From the NCBI GenBank assembly GCA_016791475.1, contig JAEUWI010000029.1:1-64000 (forward strand): DNA of 64,000 nt. Reading direction: 5' to 3'. Position 1 is the stretch's first letter; each line of letters starts with the position of its first letter. This document shows, one piece after another, positions 5,328 to 33,126 of the stretch. The position numbers and the translations under genes were made by a program. The notes under the pieces were generated by a model. The model was given only the letters and a program-made list of their open reading frames with translations, did not search any database and was not told the DNA's origin. The stretch is from Candidatus Hydrogenedentota bacterium. GTDB taxonomy: Bacteria > Hydrogenedentota > Hydrogenedentia > Hydrogenedentales > JAEUWI01.

Positions 5328-5838
5328 TCAGACGAACTGGGCGAACTGGGAACAGCCACCGACTAAAGCGCCCAATTCCAACGTGTGAAGAAAACGGGGA
5401 TAGCCACCTATAAAAGAGGACTTCCTGCCCGCCGCTACGGGCACTCCCTGGAAACCATTTCTAAGGTCGCCCTTTTGAAACTTGCAGTCCACTTTCGGTC
5501 GCCTTTCAATTGCGGGGAGCATGTGTGGCGAGGGGGCTGCAGTACATGGCTTCGGCTTCTCGAGTAGCTGGTTCCCACCACCTGCCCGAACCCCATACCC
5601 CCCAATCCCTTCCCCTCCCGACACGTCAACGCCCGATCCTAATCTATAGGGTAGGTAGGTCAACCTCCACACAACGGACTCATTTCAGGCAGGGAAAACC
5701 CCATGCAGGTGACCCGACGCTACGACCCCGCCAAAGACGCCAGGTTTCACGTTTCCATCGCGACGACCGATGAAGTACGCCGGATATGGGCTGAAAGTCC
5801 GCCGCAGGAGGACCACGCCCCTGTCCGAGTGGACGGGG

Positions 5839-22828: not shown

Positions 22829-23587
22829 TCAGGCCACTGAGTTCACTTGGTCCATTCTCCTTTTGCGCCCCACGAATCCGTAGTGTGGCACCTTCGCCAG
22901 CGGCACAAAGGGCAATCCGCCCCGACATTCCGCGAGGTGAATGGTCTCAAAGGCATGCGCCAGCCAAGGCAGGTGATCAGCATTCAGAAAGACGTTGTCG
23001 TTGGCGAACCAGGCGGGCCAGAAGTGGCGCGTAAATGCGCTGTGGCGGCGATGGCCTTCCGCGACATACTTGCGCGATACGTAGAAGTCCACCACGCCGA
23101 TGTGGCCGCCCGGCTTGAGGAGGCGCAGGGCGTGCTCCAGTGCGGCGAACCAATTGGGGATCATGGTGAGCGAGTAGCTGAAGGTTACCAGGTCGACCGG
23201 GCCGCCGTCGGGCACAAAGGTGGTAACGTCGGCCTCGTGCAGGGCGACGTTGGTGAGACCGAGGGTGCTGACGCGTTTTCGCGCAATGTTCAACAGGCTG
23301 GGGGACAGGTCCACGATGTGGATGCGCTCAAGGGCGGCGGCGCGTTCGCCCATGAAGCCGATGGAGGCGCCGGTCGCGCCGCCCATGTCGATCCAGGTCT
23401 GTCCCGCTTCGAGTGGAAGCGATCTGAAAAGGGCTTCGCGCCCGTGCAGCAGGCGCTGGCGGAAGTCGTCGTAGCCTTCGGCCTGGGGGCCGTAGAACGA
23501 CTCCAGCCGCTGGGCGTGGGTGCCGCCGCGGACCGGCCGGACCATCAAATGGTATAGCGTCGCGAGGTCGCGCATCGCGGCGTTCAT
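22829..23587 (-). CDS. btaB: Diacylglyceryl-homoserine N-methyltransferase
   Basis: A 252-residue SAM-dependent methyltransferase that would add three methyl groups to diacylglyceryl-homoserine, the last step to the betaine lipid DGTS. The SAM loop is IDMGGATGASIGF; SYSLTMIPNWFAALEHA and LKPGGHIGVVDFYVSR are hallmarks of BtaB. Its ATG overlaps the stop of btaA by four bases (ATGA), so the two are translationally coupled, which supports the assignment. The length is slightly above that of the Rhodobacter protein. The C-terminal residues beyond the fold are basic. The neighbouring sigma factor and fatty-acid-modifying operon suggest a shared membrane-lipid theme. Confidence 0.88.
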   Translation of the reverse strand: MNAAMRDLATLYHLMVRPVRGGTHAQRLESFYGPQAEGYDDFRQRLLHGREALFRSLPLEAGQTWIDMGGATGASIGFMGERAAALERIHIVDLSPSLLNIARKRVSTLGLTNVALHEADVTTFVPDGGPVDLVTFSYSLTMIPNWFAALEHALRLLKPGGHIGVVDFYVSRKYVAEGHRRHSAFTRHFWPAWFANDNVFLNADHLPWLAHAFETIHLAECRGGLPFVPLAKVPHYGFVGRKRRMDQVNSVA

Positions 23588-24780
23588 GCGGGCAGTAGAT
23601 CGGCGATATAAAAGCTGCCGTAGGTGTGCACCCGGTCGCGCTCGTGCAGTGCGGCCGCCTTGTTCCGGTCGTATTGGAGTGCTTCCGCCAGCCGGATCGC
23701 GCGTCCTCCGCGGACGACTTCAACGTCGTCAACAAAGGTGGTGTTCAGACCGCCGCTCCGCCAGATGATACGGGCATCCTCGGAGGCGCGATTGACGATG
23801 GCCTGCCATTCTTTCGTAAGCTCGCGGTTGGGGTCCTGGCAGAGCCAGTCCATGTGGTCGAGGAGCACGAAGCGGGAGATGGTTCCCTCGTAGCCTTCCA
23901 GGAATTGCCTTACCGTGCCCGTGTTCACGGAGACGGCCTCCGCCGCGCCCGCTTTCAGGCGCTGGAAACCTTCGGGCTTGAGATACTCGGGACAACAATC
24001 GGGGGTGTAGGCTCCGGTTAGATAAACGCGCCAGAAGTAGTTGTCGTGCAGGGGCAGGTGGCCGAAGACGGCGTCGACGCAGTCTTCCACGAAACCCACA
24101 ACCCCACCGGGATGGAAGCGCTCCACGGTCTCGCGCTGTCGCAGCGGGACGCCGAGCATGCTGAGGGTCATGTCGCGATCCATGAGCCAGCGGACGTATC
24201 GCGTCCAGAAGGCTTCCCGAATTTCGGCATAGTACAGGGCGCGCTGCGATTCAAGGTCGGGCGCGGAAAGCAGTGCGTCCACGCCCTCACGCAGGGCCGG
24301 TCGGCAGCCGAGGTAGGCATTGATAAGCCACGCGAAAGCGCCGGAGGTGCCCCGAAAATAGAAGCTTCGCCGGGATTGCGCCGGGTCAAAGAAGTCGGCG
24401 TTGCGGTCCCAGTAGGCCCGGGCGCTTTCGCCCAGCCGAGGCCGCAGGGCGCTGCGATAGATGCGATGAAACTCCGGCAGGCGGCCTCTGCCGAAAAGTG
24501 CGAAGAAGTCCTCGTAGTCCAGTTCGTGGAGGCCGGCCAACTTGAGCTCTAAAAGGGCATTCTGCCGGTGATTCATATCCACCGTGTGGACCTGGCCCGC
24601 GCCCGCCAGCGCGTAGTCCAACGCGTTGCACCCGGCCGACGTGATGACGAGAACCGCGTCGCGCGGCGTAAGCTCCAGCGCCTCCCGGTCGATTCGGGGG
24701 TCCTCCCAGCAGGTGTTGTAGACCAGGTTGCGGGAGTGAACAAGGCGGAATCCAGCCTGACTGAGGAAATTGCCTATCAT
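23584..24780 (-). CDS. btaA: SAM:diacylglycerol 3-amino-3-carboxypropyltransferase (DUF3419)
   Basis: BtaA transfers the aminocarboxypropyl group of SAM to diacylglycerol, the first step of betaine lipid synthesis. From ATG 24780 the product has 398 residues. Recognised segments are NLVYNTCWEDPRIDREAL, ITSAGCNALDYALAG (SAM loop), HTVDMNHRQNALLELKLAG and VLLDHMDWL, all typical of DUF3419/BtaA. A longer frame to 24897 exists, but its 39 extra residues have no family match. btaB follows with a four-base overlap. The gene is divergent from the ECF sigma factor at 24957, with 176 bases between. No Pho box could be identified by eye. Confidence 0.9.
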   Translation of the reverse strand: MIGNFLSQAGFRLVHSRNLVYNTCWEDPRIDREALELTPRDAVLVITSAGCNALDYALAGAGQVHTVDMNHRQNALLELKLAGLHELDYEDFFALFGRGRLPEFHRIYRSALRPRLGESARAYWDRNADFFDPAQSRRSFYFRGTSGAFAWLINAYLGCRPALREGVDALLSAPDLESQRALYYAEIREAFWTRYVRWLMDRDMTLSMLGVPLRQRETVERFHPGGVVGFVEDCVDAVFGHLPLHDNYFWRVYLTGAYTPDCCPEYLKPEGFQRLKAGAAEAVSVNTGTVRQFLEGYEGTISRFVLLDHMDWLCQDPNRELTKEWQAIVNRASEDARIIWRSGGLNTTFVDDVEVVRGGRAIRLAEALQYDRNKAAALHERDRVHTYGSFYIADLLPA

Positions 24781-24931
24781 GGTGTCGCGCGGTCCTGTGT
24801 TTCGGGTAAAGTGCTTAGCGATACGGCAGAGTACTGCAGGTTTGTATGGCAAAAATGAGGCCGAGGTTATGGCCGCGTGAAAAACGATAGTCCCCACTTG
24901 GTCCCGTGCGGGTACAGAATAGGCAAATCGT

Positions 24932-24956: not shown

Positions 24957-27308
24957 ATGTTTAATCTATTGAAGCGGTCCGACACGCGGCAAGTGCGTCA
25001 GGTTTTGTCGGGGCAATCGGAGGCCTTCGGGCCGCTGGTGGATCGCTATTTGCCCGCGGTGTATGCCGTGTCCTACGCGTATCTCGGCAATCATGCCGAC
25101 GCGGAGGACGTCACGCAGGAGGCTTTTGTCTCCGCCTATACGAGTCTGCACACGCTGAAAGAACCGAAGAAGTTTGAGGGATGGGTAGTCAGCATCGCAC
25201 GGCAGACGGCCTCCAAGCTGCGACGCAAGCAGCGACGGGAGGAGACTGTCTCCGCCGCGCTCCCAACCGATGCAATCCATCAGCCCGATCCGGCGCGCGA
25301 GGAATTGCGCCGCCTCTTGCGCGCCGAGATCGAGCGCATGGACGACGAGCCGCGTGAGGTGTTGCTGTTGCATTACCACGCGGGAATGAACGCCCGGGAG
25401 ATCGCGGCGGCACTCGACATCAACCGGGAGGCGGTGAAGAAGCGCCTGCAGCGGGCGCGGCAGACGTTGAGCGAGAACCTGCTCGCGGTGATCGGCGAGG
25501 AGTCGAGGCCGAAGACCGACTACGTGCGGCAACGAAGTGCGATCATGGGGCTTGTGGCTGCGGCGGGCATTGGGTGGACGGCAAGTGCGGTGGCCGGTGC
25601 AGGGGACTTAGGCCGAGCGTCATCCATGGCGCTGCCAATGAAACTTGGCGGAGCTGCGCTTGCTATCGTGGTGATACTCGGAGCGACCTATGTGGCGACG
25701 AGGAACATGCCGCCTCGCGTGCCTACGGAAGGGGTGTTGGCTAATGCTCTGAATACCGTCGATGTGCGACCAGTTCATGCGGAAATCGTTGCTGTCCCCA
25801 GTGAGGTGAGCGTAGAGGAAGACGCAGTAGAGCCTGGGGAGTCCCTGGAAGAAGGCACCGCGGCGGGCTCCCTGACCGGCTATTGGAGGGCCTGCAATCT
25901 GGTCACAAATACGGGATTCTTTTCGAGTTGGAATGGGAAAAGCGACATTGTCTTCCTGGAGCAAGTCAACGACGATGTAACCCTCTATGCGATGTCGAGT
26001 GGCGAAACGAAGTTTGTAGCCGGGCATGGCGCTATAGAAGGCAATCAACTTCGCATCGCGCTTCCCATGTCCGATGGTCCGATGATTGGCAAACAGGCGA
26101 GCATAAAATCGGACTCATCGACTCCAACGGCGGATGAATCAGTACCTGCCAAGCCCGATATCACGTTTGCCCAAGTGCCCGGCTCGCAGATCATAGAGGT
26201 TTATGATACGACAGTCAGGGAGGAGGCGAGAGATGATGATGCTCCCCGTTCGACGCAGGAATTGGTGTGTACGGGGACTCTCTCGGATGGCAACTCCATG
26301 ATGCTGAGCTGTATAGTAGAGGGAGGTAGCAAGCAGACTCCATTCACTCAGGACGCCGAATTTACCCGTCTTGCAGAGCGGGATGTGGCGGAACTGAAAA
26401 TAATGGGTCAGCGAATTCACGAGATGGAAATCTTGGCGACTGCGTTGAAGGCGTTCCACACGGCTTACCCATCAACTTTTCCCGAGGAACTAAGTGGGTT
26501 GAGCGATGGCTTTCTTGATTCGCCTCAACTTGTCGTATCTAGCGGAAGTCGAATATTGGAATACTCGCCCAATGCACCTTGGAATCAGGGCTATTCCGAG
26601 AGACCCGAGGAAATGACAAGCCAAAACTATCTGCTGCAACGTGAAAAAGATGCCTTGGCTCCCTGGCCGGACTTTCCCAACGCGCCTCCACTGTTACGCG
26701 CCCGGTATTCTACGCCACCCATGATTCTAGAAATTCGAGAGGCAAATCCGTCCAGCGTAGAGCGAGTAGATCCGGGGAACCGGTTGCGCTGTTTCAGTTT
26801 CGGCACGTCCCCCTGGACGCCTGAAATCCAGGAAAGATGCATAGAATCGTGCCAGAAAAATATGAAGCAACTTGGCCTGGTGCTCAAAATGTTCGCCAAT
26901 GAGGCTGAAGAGGGTCGATTTCCCGCAGGCTGGGCGACGACCGTTCCCGAATACTTGGCCAATACGAATGTGCTCACCTGTCCCAGCGTCAGCGGGGAGG
27001 AGGGCTCCACCCGCTCGGTAAGCTACGAATTGCTATTTCCCGCCATCAATGAGGAAGAACTCGTTATCCTTGCGGAAGAAATGGGATTGGATACTGGCGA
27101 TATAAAAGCGCTGAAACACAAGGTTCCTGTGATCATCGAAAACCACCCCTGCGCCGATGGGAAGTCTCGGAATGTTGTCTTTTTGGACGGTGATGCCGAG
27201 CGAATCGAGGACAGTGATTGGGCAAGGGTTGTGGCTCCGTTCATCGCGGCTTCGGAAGCGTATCGGACGGATGTCTTTTCAAACGGGGAGGCTGTAATGG
27301 GTGGGTAG
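24957..27308 (+). CDS. ECF-type sigma factor fused to a transmembrane, extracytoplasmic domain
   Basis: A 783-residue fusion. Residues ~1-185 are an ECF sigma factor: region 2 (YLGNHADAEDVTQEAFVSAY), then region 4 (LLHYHAGMNAREIAAALDIN, EAVKKRLQRARQTL). One or two hydrophobic segments follow (LVAAAGIGWTASAVAGA, and AALAIVVILGATYVA at about 235), then ~540 presumably extracytoplasmic residues. The C-terminal ~120 residues contain NMKQLGLVLKMFANEAEEG...FPAGW and VFLDGDAERI, resembling the C-terminal domain of planctomycete-type prepilin-like (DUF1559/HX9DG) proteins. Start chosen for GAGGAG seven bases upstream. No separate anti-sigma gene is adjacent, so the fused domain may replace it. Known ECF factors of planctomycetes also carry fused sensor domains; this combination is one I have not seen described. 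Confidence 0.85.
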   Translation: MFNLLKRSDTRQVRQVLSGQSEAFGPLVDRYLPAVYAVSYAYLGNHADAEDVTQEAFVSAYTSLHTLKEPKKFEGWVVSIARQTASKLRRKQRREETVSAALPTDAIHQPDPAREELRRLLRAEIERMDDEPREVLLLHYHAGMNAREIAAALDINREAVKKRLQRARQTLSENLLAVIGEESRPKTDYVRQRSAIMGLVAAAGIGWTASAVAGAGDLGRASSMALPMKLGGAALAIVVILGATYVATRNMPPRVPTEGVLANALNTVDVRPVHAEIVAVPSEVSVEEDAVEPGESLEEGTAAGSLTGYWRACNLVTNTGFFSSWNGKSDIVFLEQVNDDVTLYAMSSGETKFVAGHGAIEGNQLRIALPMSDGPMIGKQASIKSDSSTPTADESVPAKPDITFAQVPGSQIIEVYDTTVREEARDDDAPRSTQELVCTGTLSDGNSMMLSCIVEGGSKQTPFTQDAEFTRLAERDVAELKIMGQRIHEMEILATALKAFHTAYPSTFPEELSGLSDGFLDSPQLVVSSGSRILEYSPNAPWNQGYSERPEEMTSQNYLLQREKDALAPWPDFPNAPPLLRARYSTPPMILEIREANPSSVERVDPGNRLRCFSFGTSPWTPEIQERCIESCQKNMKQLGLVLKMFANEAEEGRFPAGWATTVPEYLANTNVLTCPSVSGEEGSTRSVSYELLFPAINEEELVILAEEMGLDTGDIKALKHKVPVIIENHPCADGKSRNVVFLDGDAERIEDSDWARVVAPFIAASEAYRTDVFSNGEAVMGG

Positions 27309-27504: not shown

Positions 27505-28050
27505 TCAGGGTTTATTCTTCCGTTCCTTCTCGATCTTCTCACGCGCTTCTTCCACGGCCTCGTGGAGCCGCTTCTTGACCTTGTTCACGAACCATTTCAC
27601 CACGGGCACGCGCTCGTAGATGTACTCGCCCATGTCGAAGTAGTCGCGGTGGTAGATGATCTTGTTGCTCTCGCCGAATTTGAGGTGAGAGACGCCGTCG
27701 ATGCTGAAGGGTTGGCCCTTGTTCAGGCCCTTGGTGGTTAGCGTCATGGTCCAGACCAGCACGTGGGTGTCGCCGTCGATGACTTCGTCGTGGTAGGTCC
27801 ACTTTATGTCGGTAACGTATTGATACATGGCCTCCATGTAGATCTTGAACTCGCCGAGGCCCTCGGTGCGGTCGAGGGGATCCTGAAAGACCATGTTCTC
27901 GTCGTAGAGTTCGTCGAGAAGGTAGAGGTTGTGCACGCGGACGTCGTCGTAGGCGCTGCGGATGCGGGCGGAACGTTCTTCGGACAGGGTAAGGGGCATG
28001 CTGTTCTCCGCGGCCATCAGGAGGCCCAGGGTGAGTGCGATGGTGGTCAT
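27505..28050 (-). CDS. NTF2/SnoaL-like protein of the fatty-acid-modification operon
   Basis: A 181-residue protein, last gene of the minus-strand operon. The core (about 28-140) matches the SnoaL/NTF2 fold: YDENMVFQDPLDRTEGLGEF, a central YHDEVIDGDTHVLVWTMTL strand pair, and SHLKFGESNKIIYHRDYFD. The N-terminus may be a short signal or membrane anchor; the C-terminus is a charged helix (KKRLHEAVEEAREKIEKERK). Proteins of this type accompany cyclopropane-synthase/DUF1365/FAD-oxidase clusters in proteobacteria; their role is unproven. Its ATG overlaps the stop of the preceding gene by four bases. Confidence 0.75.
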   Translation of the reverse strand: MTTIALTLGLLMAAENSMPLTLSEERSARIRSAYDDVRVHNLYLLDELYDENMVFQDPLDRTEGLGEFKIYMEAMYQYVTDIKWTYHDEVIDGDTHVLVWTMTLTTKGLNKGQPFSIDGVSHLKFGESNKIIYHRDYFDMGEYIYERVPVVKWFVNKVKKRLHEAVEEAREKIEKERKNKP

Positions 28051-28652
28051 GGGCGTTGGGTTTCCTTCTCGGTTTCGCGCGCCGCGATTTCTTCGGTTGC
28101 CGGGTTCAGCGAGGCGAGCTTAGTACGGTCCACGATTTCGGTGGTGGGGCCGAGGCACATGGCCCAGAGGGCGCGCACGAGGGCGGGGTCTTCCCACTGA
28201 CCGATTATGGTGTCGTCGTGGCGCACTTGCAGGCGTCCATCCGGGCTTGCGATGAAGAACAGGCGCTCTCCGCGGGCGAACGGCGCCTGAAAGGCGTCAA
28301 CGAAATCCTCGCGCGGTTTCATATCGAGATCCTTGAAGTGCTTCTTCCAGGAATGGCGGATGCCATGGGCCGGCACGCTCTTGTAGACCCCATGGAAGAT
28401 GAGCACCTTGTGCGCGGGGGTGTCGATGTACTGGCTAAGTCGCGCGTCGGGGTGCTGAGCCTCCTCGGGCATGCCGGCAATGTAATGGGCCACGGCATAG
28501 GCATCGCGACCGAGGGCTCTGCGCCGATCCACGCCGGTGAGTTGCAGGGTCTGATCCCCTATCATCATCGTGGCGTCGAAGGTTACTTGCGTATTCGGCT
28601 CGATCACGGTGGCCGCCGAGGCGAGGACTATCGAGAGCAGCGCGTGGAGCAT
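28047..28652 (-). CDS. Exported chalcone-isomerase-like protein
   Basis: A 201-residue protein from ATG 28652, whose A is shared with the stop of the upstream methyltransferase (TGATG). A short signal sequence (MLHALLSIVLASAA) precedes a lipocalin-like chalcone-isomerase fold: VTFDATMMIGDQTLQLTGVD, DAYAVAHYIAGM and LIFHGVYKSVPAHGIRHSW, then ERLFFIASPDGRLQV and IVGQ-like IIGQWEDPALVRALWAMCLG. Bacterial members bind fatty acids or similar ligands and commonly sit in these lipid clusters; enzymatic activity is doubtful. It overlaps the NTF2-like gene by four bases. The longer frame to 28733 lies inside the methyltransferase gene and is not used. Confidence 0.75.
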   Translation of the reverse strand: MLHALLSIVLASAATVIEPNTQVTFDATMMIGDQTLQLTGVDRRRALGRDAYAVAHYIAGMPEEAQHPDARLSQYIDTPAHKVLIFHGVYKSVPAHGIRHSWKKHFKDLDMKPREDFVDAFQAPFARGERLFFIASPDGRLQVRHDDTIIGQWEDPALVRALWAMCLGPTTEIVDRTKLASLNPATEEIAARETEKETQRP

Positions 28653-29701
28653 CAGGTGGCTACCGCCATTGCGGGAAGGGGTTCTTCTATGGCAGACGTC
28701 GTGGGCGCCATCAGGTAATGCCCCACGTACCATTCCTTGCCACCGTTCCAGGCGAAAAGCTCTTCACAGGCCATGAAGAAAATGCGCCAGCGCTGGGCCT
28801 GGAGGGCGGCCTCCACAGGGGAGAGATCCTTGCGCAGCACGGCCTCGACCGAACCGCGCCGCTCGTCGAGGCGGCGGAGCCAGTCCCGGCAGGTGCGGGC
28901 GTAGTGTGTGCCGTTCACGGGCCAGGCCTGCTCCACGGTGAAGGGAACGGGCAGTGATTTGAAGTAGTTGAAGGAGGGCATCATGCCGCCGCTGAAGAAG
29001 TGGCGGGTCATCCAGTCGCTTTCGCCCTGATCTTCATAGGTGTAGGTATATTGATTGTGACAGAAGATGTGCACGAAGAGCTTTCCCTCGGGCTTGAGCC
29101 ACTGGGCGATGCGCTCCAGGAGGACCACATGATTGCGGACGTGCTCGAACATCTCCACAGACACGACGCGGTCGAAACGGTTGTCAGGACGGAATCGGTT
29201 GATGTCGGCGGTTTTCACGGTGACGTTGGTCAGTCCCCGTTCGCGCGCGAGGGCCTCGATCGTTTCGCGCTGAGGTTTGGAGTTCGAAATGGCGGTGATG
29301 TGGCTGCCGGGGTAGCGCTCCGCCATCCACAGGGTGAGGGAACCCCAACCGCAGCCGAGTTCCAGAATGTCCATCCCGTCTTCCAGGCCCGCATGCTCAC
29401 AGGTCTGGCGCAGCATGGCTTCTTCGGCGACCCCAAGGGGCGTCTCGGGCGTGGTGTACCAGCAACAACTGTATTTGCGTCGCGGTCCCAGCACGAGCTC
29501 AAAAAAAGCGGGATCGACTTCGTAATGCTGCTCGTTGGCCTGGTCCGTGGCCACGGCAATGGGCCTCTGGTGGTCCGTCAACAGGGGCTGGGGCGCGCGG
29601 CGGCACTGTTTGAGCCGCTGGGCGAGAAGGCGGCGAATGCCGAAGCGGATTACGCTGTCGGGGAGGCAGCCCCGCTCGGCAAGTCGGATGGGGAGTGACA
29701 T
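28652..29701 (-). CDS. CFA-family SAM methyltransferase, coclaurine-N-methyltransferase-like subgroup
   Basis: A 349-residue SAM enzyme. The SAM loop is ILELGCGWGSLTLW; VSVEMFEHVRNH and KLFVHIFCHNQYTYTYED follow, then DWMTRHFFSGGMMPSFNYF and WPVNGTHYARTCRDWLRRLD. This last pattern is characteristic of the cyclopropane-synthase subgroup related to plant coclaurine N-methyltransferases rather than of true CFA synthases, and the usual CFA N-terminal lipid-binding domain is shortened. It may methylate an unsaturated acyl chain or an amine. ATG 29701 (MSLPIRLAERG) is chosen over ATG 29749, which lacks family similarity. A 103-base gap separates it from the second methyltransferase, the only real gap in the operon. 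Confidence 0.8.
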   Translation of the reverse strand: MSLPIRLAERGCLPDSVIRFGIRRLLAQRLKQCRRAPQPLLTDHQRPIAVATDQANEQHYEVDPAFFELVLGPRRKYSCCWYTTPETPLGVAEEAMLRQTCEHAGLEDGMDILELGCGWGSLTLWMAERYPGSHITAISNSKPQRETIEALARERGLTNVTVKTADINRFRPDNRFDRVVSVEMFEHVRNHVVLLERIAQWLKPEGKLFVHIFCHNQYTYTYEDQGESDWMTRHFFSGGMMPSFNYFKSLPVPFTVEQAWPVNGTHYARTCRDWLRRLDERRGSVEAVLRKDLSPVEAALQAQRWRIFFMACEELFAWNGGKEWYVGHYLMAPTTSAIEEPLPAMAVAT

Positions 29702-29804
29702 GATTTGAAATTCCTTATGTCGGAAAGCTTGGACGGACAAAGAAGTCAAAGTTCACAAAGGTTTATGTTTTGAATTCTTCGTGGCTGACCAATCCTTAAA
29801 TGGC

Positions 29805-31067
29805 TCACATCGGTGCGCGATAGCCGGGACGGGCGTAGACCAGCTGGGAGACGCCGGTGAGGTGCTCTTCGAATCCGGACTGGCAATAGCACAAGTAAAA
29901 GCACCACATGCGCCGGAATGATTCGGAGTAGCCCAGAGCCGCGATACTCGCTTCATTCTCCAGGAAGCGTTCGCGCCATTTCGCGAGGGTTTTCGCGTAG
30001 TGGGGGGTCATGTCATCCAGGCAGACCAGTGCCAGGTCGGTGTGTTTCGTGGCGACATTGCACAGGGTCGTGTGGGAGGGCAGGCAACCACCGGGGAAGA
30101 TGTAGCGCTTGATAAAGTCCACATTGCGCCGGGCGAGGTTGTACTGCTGGTCGCGAATGGTGATGGCTTGCAGCCCCAGAAGTCCGTCCCGGGTGAGCAA
30201 ACGCATGCATTGCTTGAAGAAAGTGGGGTAATACTGGTGGCCCACCGCCTCGATCATTTCTATGGAGGCGATCTTCGTGTAGGTGCCCGTGATATCGCGG
30301 TAATCGGAGAACTTCGCGGTCACCCGATCCTCCAGGCCTTCTTCACGGATGCGATCCCGCGTGATTGCCAATTGCTCCTTGCTGATGGTAATGGTGGTTA
30401 CCTTGCATCCGTAGGTCGTCGCGGCGTGACACGCGAAGCCGCCCCAGCCGCTTCCGATTTCCAGCAGGTGGTCGTTCTCATTGAGATTCAACTTGCGGCA
30501 GAGGCGGTCGAACTTATTGGTGCTCGCCTGGGCCAGCGAATCATGTTCGCTTTCGAAGTAAGCGCTGGAATAGGCCATGGTCTCGTCGAGAAAGGTCTTG
30601 AAGAAGTCATTGCCCAGATCATAGTGGGCGGCAATGTTCTTGCGGCTGCCGCTGCGGCTGTTCTTGTTGAACCAGTGATAGGCCTTCAAGAAGGGGGCCT
30701 GAATGTCGCTGAGACGACGATCCATCGCGTCCAGTGTGGCGCTGTTGCGCGCGAGAATGCGGCAAAGGCTCGGCAGGTCGTCGGTGGCCCAGTCGCCGTC
30801 CATGTAGGACTCCGCCGCGCCGATGGAGCCGCCCAGGGCGATGCGCGAGTAGAAGCGCGGCTGGTACACGCGTACGGATGCCGTCACGGGAAAGGCGTCG
30901 GAATAGGAGCCGAAGGTGTGCTTCTCTCTCGGGTCGCTGAGGTGGAGCACACCTTCTTCGAGACCGGTGAGGCGCTTCAAGACCATGCGCCGACAGAGGG
31001 AATCGCACTTCGCGGGCTCTGCGGAAAGGCCCTCAAGCCGGGTGGTGTCAAAGGCGGAGTGTTTCAT
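29805..31067 (-). CDS. Cyclopropane-fatty-acyl-phospholipid synthase family methyltransferase
   Basis: A 420-residue SAM enzyme that modifies double bonds of acyl chains in membrane phospholipids. It has the full-length CFA layout: N-terminal domain with [43 protein letters not shown] loop [33 protein letters not shown], and [10 protein letters not shown]. Products could be cyclopropane acids or methylated intermediates such as those of furan fatty acid synthesis (UfaM of Rhodobacter is of this family). Its ATG overlaps the DUF1365 stop by four bases. The neighbouring FAD oxidoreductase and DUF1365 gene are the usual partners. Confidence 0.9.
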
Positions 31068-31837
31068 GGGGCTTTGCTCTCCTCCAGAGGGTCAATTCGC
31101 TTTGGGTACGGTTGAAAAGGCACGCCCTTGAGCCAAAGGCGCAATGCCTGCCAATAGATTGCGATAAAAATCCGCAGGGTCATGAATGGGTAGCCCACCA
31201 GGGTCCATGCCAGGCGGGGCGTGGACCAGGACCGGCGGAACATGGTCATTCCGGCCTCGAAGATCTCCGCGCCGTTCTGAATATTCTGAAGTTGGACGTC
31301 CAGAATATCGCCGGGCTCGTTCAGGCGACATCGGTACTCATGGTTCATTTCCATGAAGGGCGACACGTGAAAGGCCTTTGCGCAGCGGTAGGGGCTTTGA
31401 GGATCGCGACATACCTCGCCGGGCCAGATGTAGAGATGGCGTTCATTCCAGGGGGTGTTGTGTACTTCGGCGACGACGGTTTCCACCCGTGAATCGCTTT
31501 CGTCATAGCAATAGTAGAGGGATATGGGATTCATGTAGAACCCGAAGTAGCGAAGCTGGGTCAACAGTCGTACGGGGCCGGCCGGGCGTGTGCCGGTGGC
31601 TTCGGCCACCGCGCCGCGGATGGTTTCCCCCAGCGGCACGGCCGGTGCGCCCACGTGGTCTTTTCGCCGAAACCACGCCAGCGTAGGGAATCGGTGGGAC
31701 CAGCAGAGGCGTCCGGAGAAGGCCTCATCGAGGTGATCCAAGTCCAGCCAGGTCATAAAGAGACGGTAGCGGAAGGCGTGGGACTTTGGTGCGTGGCGCG
31801 CGTGCCAGACGGTACCGGTGTAGAGCGCGGCGTTCAC
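31064..31837 (-). CDS. DUF1365 protein
   Basis: A 257-residue protein of family DUF1365: [19 protein letters not shown], then [37 protein letters not shown], and [15 protein letters not shown] near residue 175, all family hallmarks. The molecular activity is not established; DUF1365 genes co-occur almost always with a FAD-dependent oxidoreductase and a CFA-family methyltransferase and are thought to act on acyl chains. Here it is coupled to both neighbours through four-base ATGA overlaps, which makes a joint function very likely. Confidence 0.92.
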
Positions 31838-33084
31838 TGGATTTGCCCCGCGCCGAAGAATTCACAGGCTTTCAGGGCGCTCTTCACGCCGTCTTCGTGG
31901 AAACCATAGCCCCAGTATGCACCGCAATAGTGGGTCCGGTTTGCGCCACTGATTTCGCCATGACGCGCTTGAGCCGTAACGGAGTTCCGACTGTAGGATG
32001 GATGGCTGTAGTTATAGCGTCCGAGTTGCTTTGCGATGTAGAGCTCGCTGGTTTGATTCAGGGACACAAGATAGTCGGTCCTGGAGTCCAGCGACTGAAG
32101 GCGATTCATGTGGTAGGTCAGGTGCGCGCGATTTCCAGCGCCGGGCGCCATCCGGTAATTCCAACTCGCCCAGGCGTCCCGGTTTTTCGGGAGGATGGCC
32201 GTGTCCGTGTGGAGCACGACATCGTTGTCCTGATACGGTATCGCGCCGAGAATCTCCCGTTCGGCATCGGTGGGCTGGGCCAGCATGCGCAGGGCCTGGT
32301 TGCTGTGAACGGCGAGTACCACATGGTCGAAGTGGAGCTGCTCCGCGTTGGGCATTTCCAGCGACACCCCCTCGGCGTTGCGGGTGATCCTGCTTACGGG
32401 CGAGAGGGTGTGGACCCGATCCTTGAAGCCCCGAATCAACGGGGGGATGTAGTTGCGGGAGCCTCCGGCAATAACGCGCCATTGGGGCCGCACTTTGAGG
32501 TTCATCAGCCCGTGATTCTCGAAAAAGTGCAGGAAATAGCTCGCGGGGAGATCCGCGACCGAATCGCAACCCGCCGACCAGATGGCGGAAATCATGGGAA
32601 CGAGATAGTGATCCAGGAAGGCCCTGGAGTAGCGCCCATGGGCAAAGAACTCGGACAGTGGAGCGTCTCCCCGACAGGTCTTGAGAAATGCGGGGCCGTG
32701 TTTGCTGAAGCGCGCGATGTCCCAGAGCATCCGGTAAAACGACGGACTGATCAGATTGGCCTTGTGAGCAAAGAGTCCGCGCAATTCCGGCGCCGCGTAG
32801 GCAAAGCCGCTTCTGGGATCGGAAAGAGCGAAGGACATGTCGCTCGCCTGGGTGGCCACCTTGAGCTTGTCGAGCAGTCGTATGAAATTGGGGTAGGTCC
32901 AATCGTTGTACACGATAAACCCCGTATCCACCGCATGGGTCCGGTCACCATCCTTCACGTCCACAGTATGGGTATGCCCGCCGATGTAGTCGTTGGCCTC
33001 GAAAAGCGACACTTCAGCTACATGTTGAAGCTGGTAGGCCGCTACCAGACCCGATATCCCCCCGCCTACGACGGCAATCCGCAT
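31834..33084 (-). CDS. FAD-dependent oxidoreductase of the amine-oxidase type (UfaO-like)
   Basis: A 416-residue flavoprotein, first gene of the operon. The N-terminal FAD loop is [15 protein letters not shown] with [10 protein letters not shown]; later [40 protein letters not shown] and [19 protein letters not shown]. These belong to the amine-oxidase/desaturase-like family whose Rhodobacter member UfaO takes part in furan fatty acid formation. ATG 33084 is chosen because AAGGAAG lies seven bases upstream; a start at 33102 has no such site. A candidate promoter and an inverted repeat lie just upstream. Confidence 0.88.
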
Positions 33085-33126
33085 GCTGACTTCCTTTTGC
33101 AATGTAATGAACTTGAATCCGACTAG

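Follow-up and report, generated by a model that had tools for sequence, protein, structure and literature searches.

We found that an uncultured Hydrogenedentota bacterium encodes an ECF sigma factor carrying, in the same chain, a membrane helix and a large C-terminal module, whose last ~150 residues are homologous, as judged from profile comparisons, to the head of DUF1559/H-X9-DG prepilins. The protein, P0001 (783 aa), is encoded in a window of 64,000 nucleotides, by which we mean the whole stretch of DNA analysed, from contig C29 of a 7.7 Mb assembly in 529 contigs (G000, here the own genome). With moderate confidence, we read P0001 as a one-protein signalling system, in which a sigma factor tethered to the inner membrane would be released upon a signal received by a periplasmic sensor derived from a prepilin head. 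Self-anchored ECFs are already known, and they are common in Hydrogenedentota with other cargos; what is new here is the pilin-derived sensor, its occurrence on both sigma and anti-sigma factors, and a conserved juxtamembrane motif.

The fused sigma factor and its membrane anchor

The gene (24957-27308, + strand) is an open reading frame uninterrupted from end to end, with AGGAG before the ATG at 24957 and an alternative in-frame GTG 51 nt upstream. Reading of the frame together with Pfam gave the order ECF sigma regions 2 and 4, membrane helix, Pro/Glu-rich linker, and a module of ~480 residues. More specifically, Sigma-70 region 2 occupies residues 27-94 (25035-25238, + strand; PF04542, 4.6e-18, 65 bits vs a cut-off of 24) and region 4 residues 119-171 (25311-25469, + strand; Sigma70_r4_2, PF08281, 1.4e-10, 41 bits vs 25.7). 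TIGR02937 is also above its cut-off and region 3 is absent, the combination that defines an ECF sigma factor. Region 4 is followed by two hydrophobic stretches. Residues 194-207 (IMGLVAAAGIGW) are too few to span a membrane, and residues 226-248 (25632-25700, + strand; hydropathy 1.94 over 19 residues) form the membrane helix. With this helix after region 4 and ~530 residues beyond it, P0001 has the layout of the anchored ECFs. The original prediction that sigma regions 2 and 4, a membrane helix, and a long outside part share one chain was therefore borne out by the open 783-aa frame, Pfam, and hydropathy. A linker rich in Pro, Glu, and Ala, recognized by sequence reading and of low model confidence, follows the helix (residues 249-304; 25701-25868, + strand). 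No zf-HC2 match was found by Pfam in P0001 or on contig C29, and all seven zf-HC2 matches of the own genome lie on other contigs, so that the absence of an anti-sigma gene nearby, as originally noticed, holds for the zinc-finger class. A promoter scan upstream of the gene did not find the ECF motif AAC-N-CGT.

Membrane-anchored sigma factors are numerous in Hydrogenedentota. Frames of at least 570 aa account for 13 of the 29 sigma matches in the own genome, and regions 2 and 4 are present in all 46 fused frames examined from the phylum, whose cargo is CarboxypepD_reg-like in 34, an STN (secretin/TonB short) domain in three, and a PQQ propeller in one. STN domains were seen in the cargo of L078, whose C-terminus is GspC-like by eye, and of L019, where the match is sub-threshold. 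Another ECF of the own genome (L021, G000:C2:172754-173272) is fused to what by eye are ankyrin-like repeats; the part that was read shows no evident membrane helix. Irrespective of the cargo, 30 of the 46 fused ECFs have a motif like IMGxIAAAPxxW at about the same distance from region 4, with 2.8 expected from shuffling the same stretch, an excess that is somewhat optimistic as the pattern was written after viewing some of the sequences. In P0001, this conserved juxtamembrane motif is SAIMGLVAAAGIGW (residues 194-207; 25536-25577, + strand), ~28 residues past the recognition helix of region 4. From its recurrence, we read it as a putative common anchor element with exchangeable cargos.

Several described systems are related to P0001 in design. 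The actinobacterial ECF52 (SCO4117), ECF48, and ECF53 (PMC5826349, PMC8999054) likewise combine an ECF sigma factor and a membrane helix in one chain without a separate anti-sigma, with proteolysis as the proposed release model (PMC8999054), and SCO4117 has a periplasmic domain in the same chain, as predicted for P0001. However, these proteins have a zinc-finger anti-sigma (ZAS) domain between sigma and membrane, which P0001 lacks, and the periplasmic part of SCO4117 consists of a Pro-rich portion and a carbohydrate-binding domain, whereas the outside module of P0001 is pilin-derived. In IutY of Pseudomonas putida (ECF243; PMC8999054), the sigma factor is also fused to its own membrane-bound regulatory part and is freed by Prc and RseP; this part is an iron-signalling anti-sigma, and both phylum and cargo differ from those of P0001. 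Planctomycete ECFs of the WD40 type (ECF57; PMC8999054, PMC8567305) resemble P0001 in having a long C-terminal extension with a large domain, but their cargo is made of WD40 repeats, a distinction drawn from their description and not from sequence. The original prediction had allowed for an ECF group already described with this architecture: in the general form of sigma, helix, and outside domain this architecture is known elsewhere, whereas pilin-derived cargo, on sigma or anti-sigma factors, was not found in the literature searched, a limited open-access set. No ECF study of Hydrogenedentota was found in the same literature.

The prepilin-like module

The last ~150 residues of P0001 (SCQKNMKQLGLVLKMFANE ... 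VPEYLANTNVLTCPS ... RNVVFLDG) align with DUF1559/H-X9-DG prepilin heads, mostly from the same phylum, and the homologous unit, delimited by the comparisons below and an AF2 model, covers residues 620-770 (26814-27266, + strand), with a helix, the two quoted segments, and an H-X13-DG hairpin. An HMM made from 11 prepilin heads alone matched P0001 at E=4.4e-17 and four relatives as well, while 200 shuffles all gave E>2 and control fused ECFs with other cargos gave no match. Profile-profile comparison (hhalign) of the C-terminal half with prepilin heads returned a probability of 99.8%. The C-terminal likeness to DUF1559/HX9DG prepilins, first noticed by reading, is thus beyond chance, and the reported distance of 13 residues between H and DG was confirmed, compared with 9 in prepilins. 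Pfam PF07596 remains under its cut-off in P0001 (12.9 vs 23.3 bits); TIGR04294 gave no match in P0001 and 18.0 vs a cut-off of 19 in the relative L111.

The module and the prepilins have in common the SCxxNxKQLGL helix, PEYLxDxxVLxCPS, the DG hairpin, and a cysteine pair. They differ in that the module is borne on the membrane helix of a sigma factor and has neither the type III signal of prepilins nor their hydrophobic N-terminal helix (FTLIELLVVIAIIGIL), with EIQERCIE standing before SCQKNMKQ. Lacking both elements, it cannot serve as a regular pilus subunit. Among the matches listed by the contig scan outside the phylum, there were ordinary prepilins plus one secreted non-pilin with the head, and nothing else; the latter is a secreted-looking protein of 252 aa in Abyssobacteria (L129, QZKI01000121, 3578-4333) ending in a DUF1559-like head, which is a reuse of the head outside pilins.

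Structure prediction of the outside part, proposed earlier as a check, succeeded in part. A model of residues 251-783 was unusable (mean pLDDT 41), whereas an AF2 model of residues 472-783 with prepilins added gave two helix-plus-sheet units at pLDDT 80. The first unit, residues 472-605 (26370-26771, + strand), has a 31-residue helix and strands at a pLDDT mostly of 80-92, and it is weakly alike to the last unit (hhalign E=2.4e-4, probability 44%); it is possibly a further pilin-like unit. Before it, residues 305-470 (25869-26366, + strand) form a poorly resolved "TGxW" stretch, probably beta-rich, whose outline is common to relatives (alignment A1) and whose model is of low confidence (pLDDT about 30). 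Foldseek of the module model gave no significant match against the PDB or viral structures (best E 1.2 and 0.6), and a profile search of PDB sequences gave no credible match, so that the pilin fold is deduced from sequence homology.

Cys632 (26850-26852, + strand) and Cys675 (26979-26981, + strand) form a co-varying pair. All 11 prepilins of alignment A5 have both, as do the four sigma-linked modules of alignment A4, whose ZAS-linked and TM-only modules all lack both. Of the two sigma-linked copies outside A4, that of G028 has the whole pair and that of G009 the second cysteine alone. This pattern fits a putative disulfide and a sigma-linked module that may be nearer to the prepilins. In the module tree, sigma-linked modules stand apart from those linked to anti-sigmas and TM anchors, with weak support (76/95).

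Distribution of the module and orientation of the chain

The module was searched for in 68 Hydrogenedentota genomes and is present in 16 of them. In G048, G052, G062, G042, G008, G040, and G065, it is carried by a membrane-anchored anti-sigma-like protein, an assignment made by eye in G052, G062, and G065. Above-cut-off zf-HC2 was found in three of the four module anti-sigmas tested (3e-13, 3e-9, and 4e-5), and the G040 protein is slightly under the cut-off (21.2 vs 22.2). T2SSC, the periplasmic GspC domain, is likewise above cut-off in three of the four, one protein having both zf-HC2 (3e-13) and T2SSC (2e-9). A sigma gene lies directly upstream of the module anti-sigma in L110, where the end of the sigma frame (...GKQSNDL and stop) overlaps the anti-sigma start (MTCNDSN) in another frame, and also in L088-L091 and L095. 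These zf-HC2 anti-sigmas share with P0001 the same extracytoplasmic module on a sigma-pathway protein, but here the module follows a GspC-like domain on the anti-sigma, the cysteine pair is lost, and the sigma, which belongs to another clade, has a gene of its own. The presence of the module on zf-HC2 anti-sigmas beside sigma genes suggests that it belongs to sigma signalling, P0001 having it wired straight to the sigma. The outside module is thus probably the sensor deciding when the sigma factor works, and one sensor wired in two ways, to an anti-sigma or to the sigma itself, offers a natural comparison.

In G010 and G033, the module sits on a membrane anchor alone, without sigma or zinc finger (L068 and L112), and the neighbouring gene is of one kind in both, SPFH-like as judged by eye; the match in G014 is a contig fragment. 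In G042, two secretin-domain genes lie less than 5 kb from the module-carrying sigma/anti-sigma pair (L213, G042:C83, 1293-3850).

The ECF sigmas paired with module anti-sigmas are distantly related to the sigma of P0001. In a tree of ZAS-linked sigmas, six module-bearing sigmas, and other-cargo fused ECFs, a deep clade of their own holds the ZAS-linked sigmas (support 100/100, branch 1.95), which argues that the module has moved between two sigma systems that are unlike each other. Five of the six module-bearing sigmas group with four other-cargo ECFs (89/93), and that of G018 is placed elsewhere with weak support.

Two rival readings concern the architecture itself. That the fusion is an assembly artefact, a frameshift, or a decaying gene, a danger already recognized in the original prediction, is very improbable, and a frameshift or assembly join was rejected: the frame stays open through all 783 codons, and the chain of sigma, membrane helix, and module occurs with identical domain order in six genomes, namely the own genome and five other Hydrogenedentota (G018, G035, G063, G028, and G009, the last copy being divided by a contig end over two contigs). 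What speaks for this reading is the G028 copy (L066, G028:C242), a pseudogene or sequencing error with in-frame stops at 690 and 1935, and the lack of the gene in the syntenic block of the congener G001. The other reading supposes two membrane segments, around residues 194-213 and 226-248, that would return the C-terminal module to the cytoplasm as an internal regulator. Residues around 195-213 do attain a hydropathy of 1.69; however, the conserved core of this segment is just ~14 residues long with a W at its end, the module homologues on zf-HC2 anti-sigmas and in TM-only proteins have a single helix, and the module has the same cysteine pair as the exported prepilins. A cytoplasmic C-terminus is judged unlikely on these grounds, and we leave it a slight chance. 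We infer instead that the module is periplasmic, because in zf-HC2 anti-sigmas, where the zinc finger has to be in the cytoplasm, it lies beyond the only membrane helix.

Proposed release of the sigma factor and its possible targets

In the proposed mechanism, the tether, perhaps with the IMGxxAAAxxxW motif, would hold the sigma off core polymerase until a periplasmic signal lays the stalk open to a first protease; an RseP-type site-2 protease would then cut the membrane helix, and the sigma would be freed. An RseP homologue that has PDZ-like regions is encoded in the own genome, next to a dxr-like gene. That the sigma of P0001 requires release is plausible by analogy, as it matches the published models for ECF48/52/53 and IutY (PMC8999054), and the pairing of fused and separate versions makes the release question for self-anchored ECFs directly testable.

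As for the signal, we suggest the state of the type II secretion or type IV pilus machinery, or something bound by pilin-like heads. In its most specific form, which is tentative and which we hold to be rather unlikely, the sigma would read the state of the cell's own pilus or type II secretion machinery: in the periplasm, the grafted pilin head, together with the GspC-like domain in the anti-sigma version, would contact pseudopilins or the secretin, and a change in assembly or secretion would release the sigma. This link to the machinery is suggested by domain resemblance and by one neighbourhood (G042). A T2SSC match and a secretin lie ~2.3 kb apart in the own genome, which thus has a locus resembling type II secretion. 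Both pilin heads and GspC-like domains are in this respect candidate reusable periplasmic sensors.

The main rival to release is that the sigma works without it, the membrane-bound sigma binding core polymerase in place, much as membrane-bound regulators of the ToxR/CadC type bind DNA, and the module altering its conformation; we take this seriously as a minority reading. A conformational switch would agree with the constant spacing between region 4 and the conserved juxtamembrane motif, and in Tuwongella, planctomycete ECF sigmas were obtained from the detergent-soluble (Triton/SDS) fractions (PMC8567305). On the other side, no ECF is known to initiate while membrane-bound, a sigma has to travel with or leave the polymerase, and for the anchored ECFs studied or modelled, release is put down to proteolysis (PMC8999054). 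Compatible with the tethered, releasable sigma that we favour, but doubtful and with a small chance in our estimate, is control of the adjacent lipid genes, as in proteobacterial ECF/ChrR systems. The gene indeed sits between two lipid clusters: betaine-lipid btaA/btaB-like genes (window 22829-24897) and a furan-fatty-acid-like cluster (window 27505-33102; UfaD-, UfaO/DUF1365-, and UfaM/CMAS-like) in the order SnoaL, chalcone isomerase, CMAS, CMAS, DUF1365, amine oxidase. In Rhodobacter, a ChrR-controlled sigma governs ufaD/ufaO/ufaM (PMC7380195, PMC5507510). Against this, the ECF promoter motif was not found in the intergenic regions, and, of the 68 genomes of the phylum, the 9 with DUF1365 include seven in which the module was not matched; in G028, one of the remaining two, the two lie on separate contigs.

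The neighbourhood of sigma-linked module copies is not conserved. The congener G001 keeps the same gene block at 55-92% identity without the sigma gene, so that regulation of the adjacent lipid genes by P0001 is not supported, adjacency being no evidence of control, and the sigma was either gained in the own genome or lost in G001. The empty site is visible in L228 (G001:C10) at about 5365-5530, where the SnoaL and btaA matches lie ~165 bp apart.
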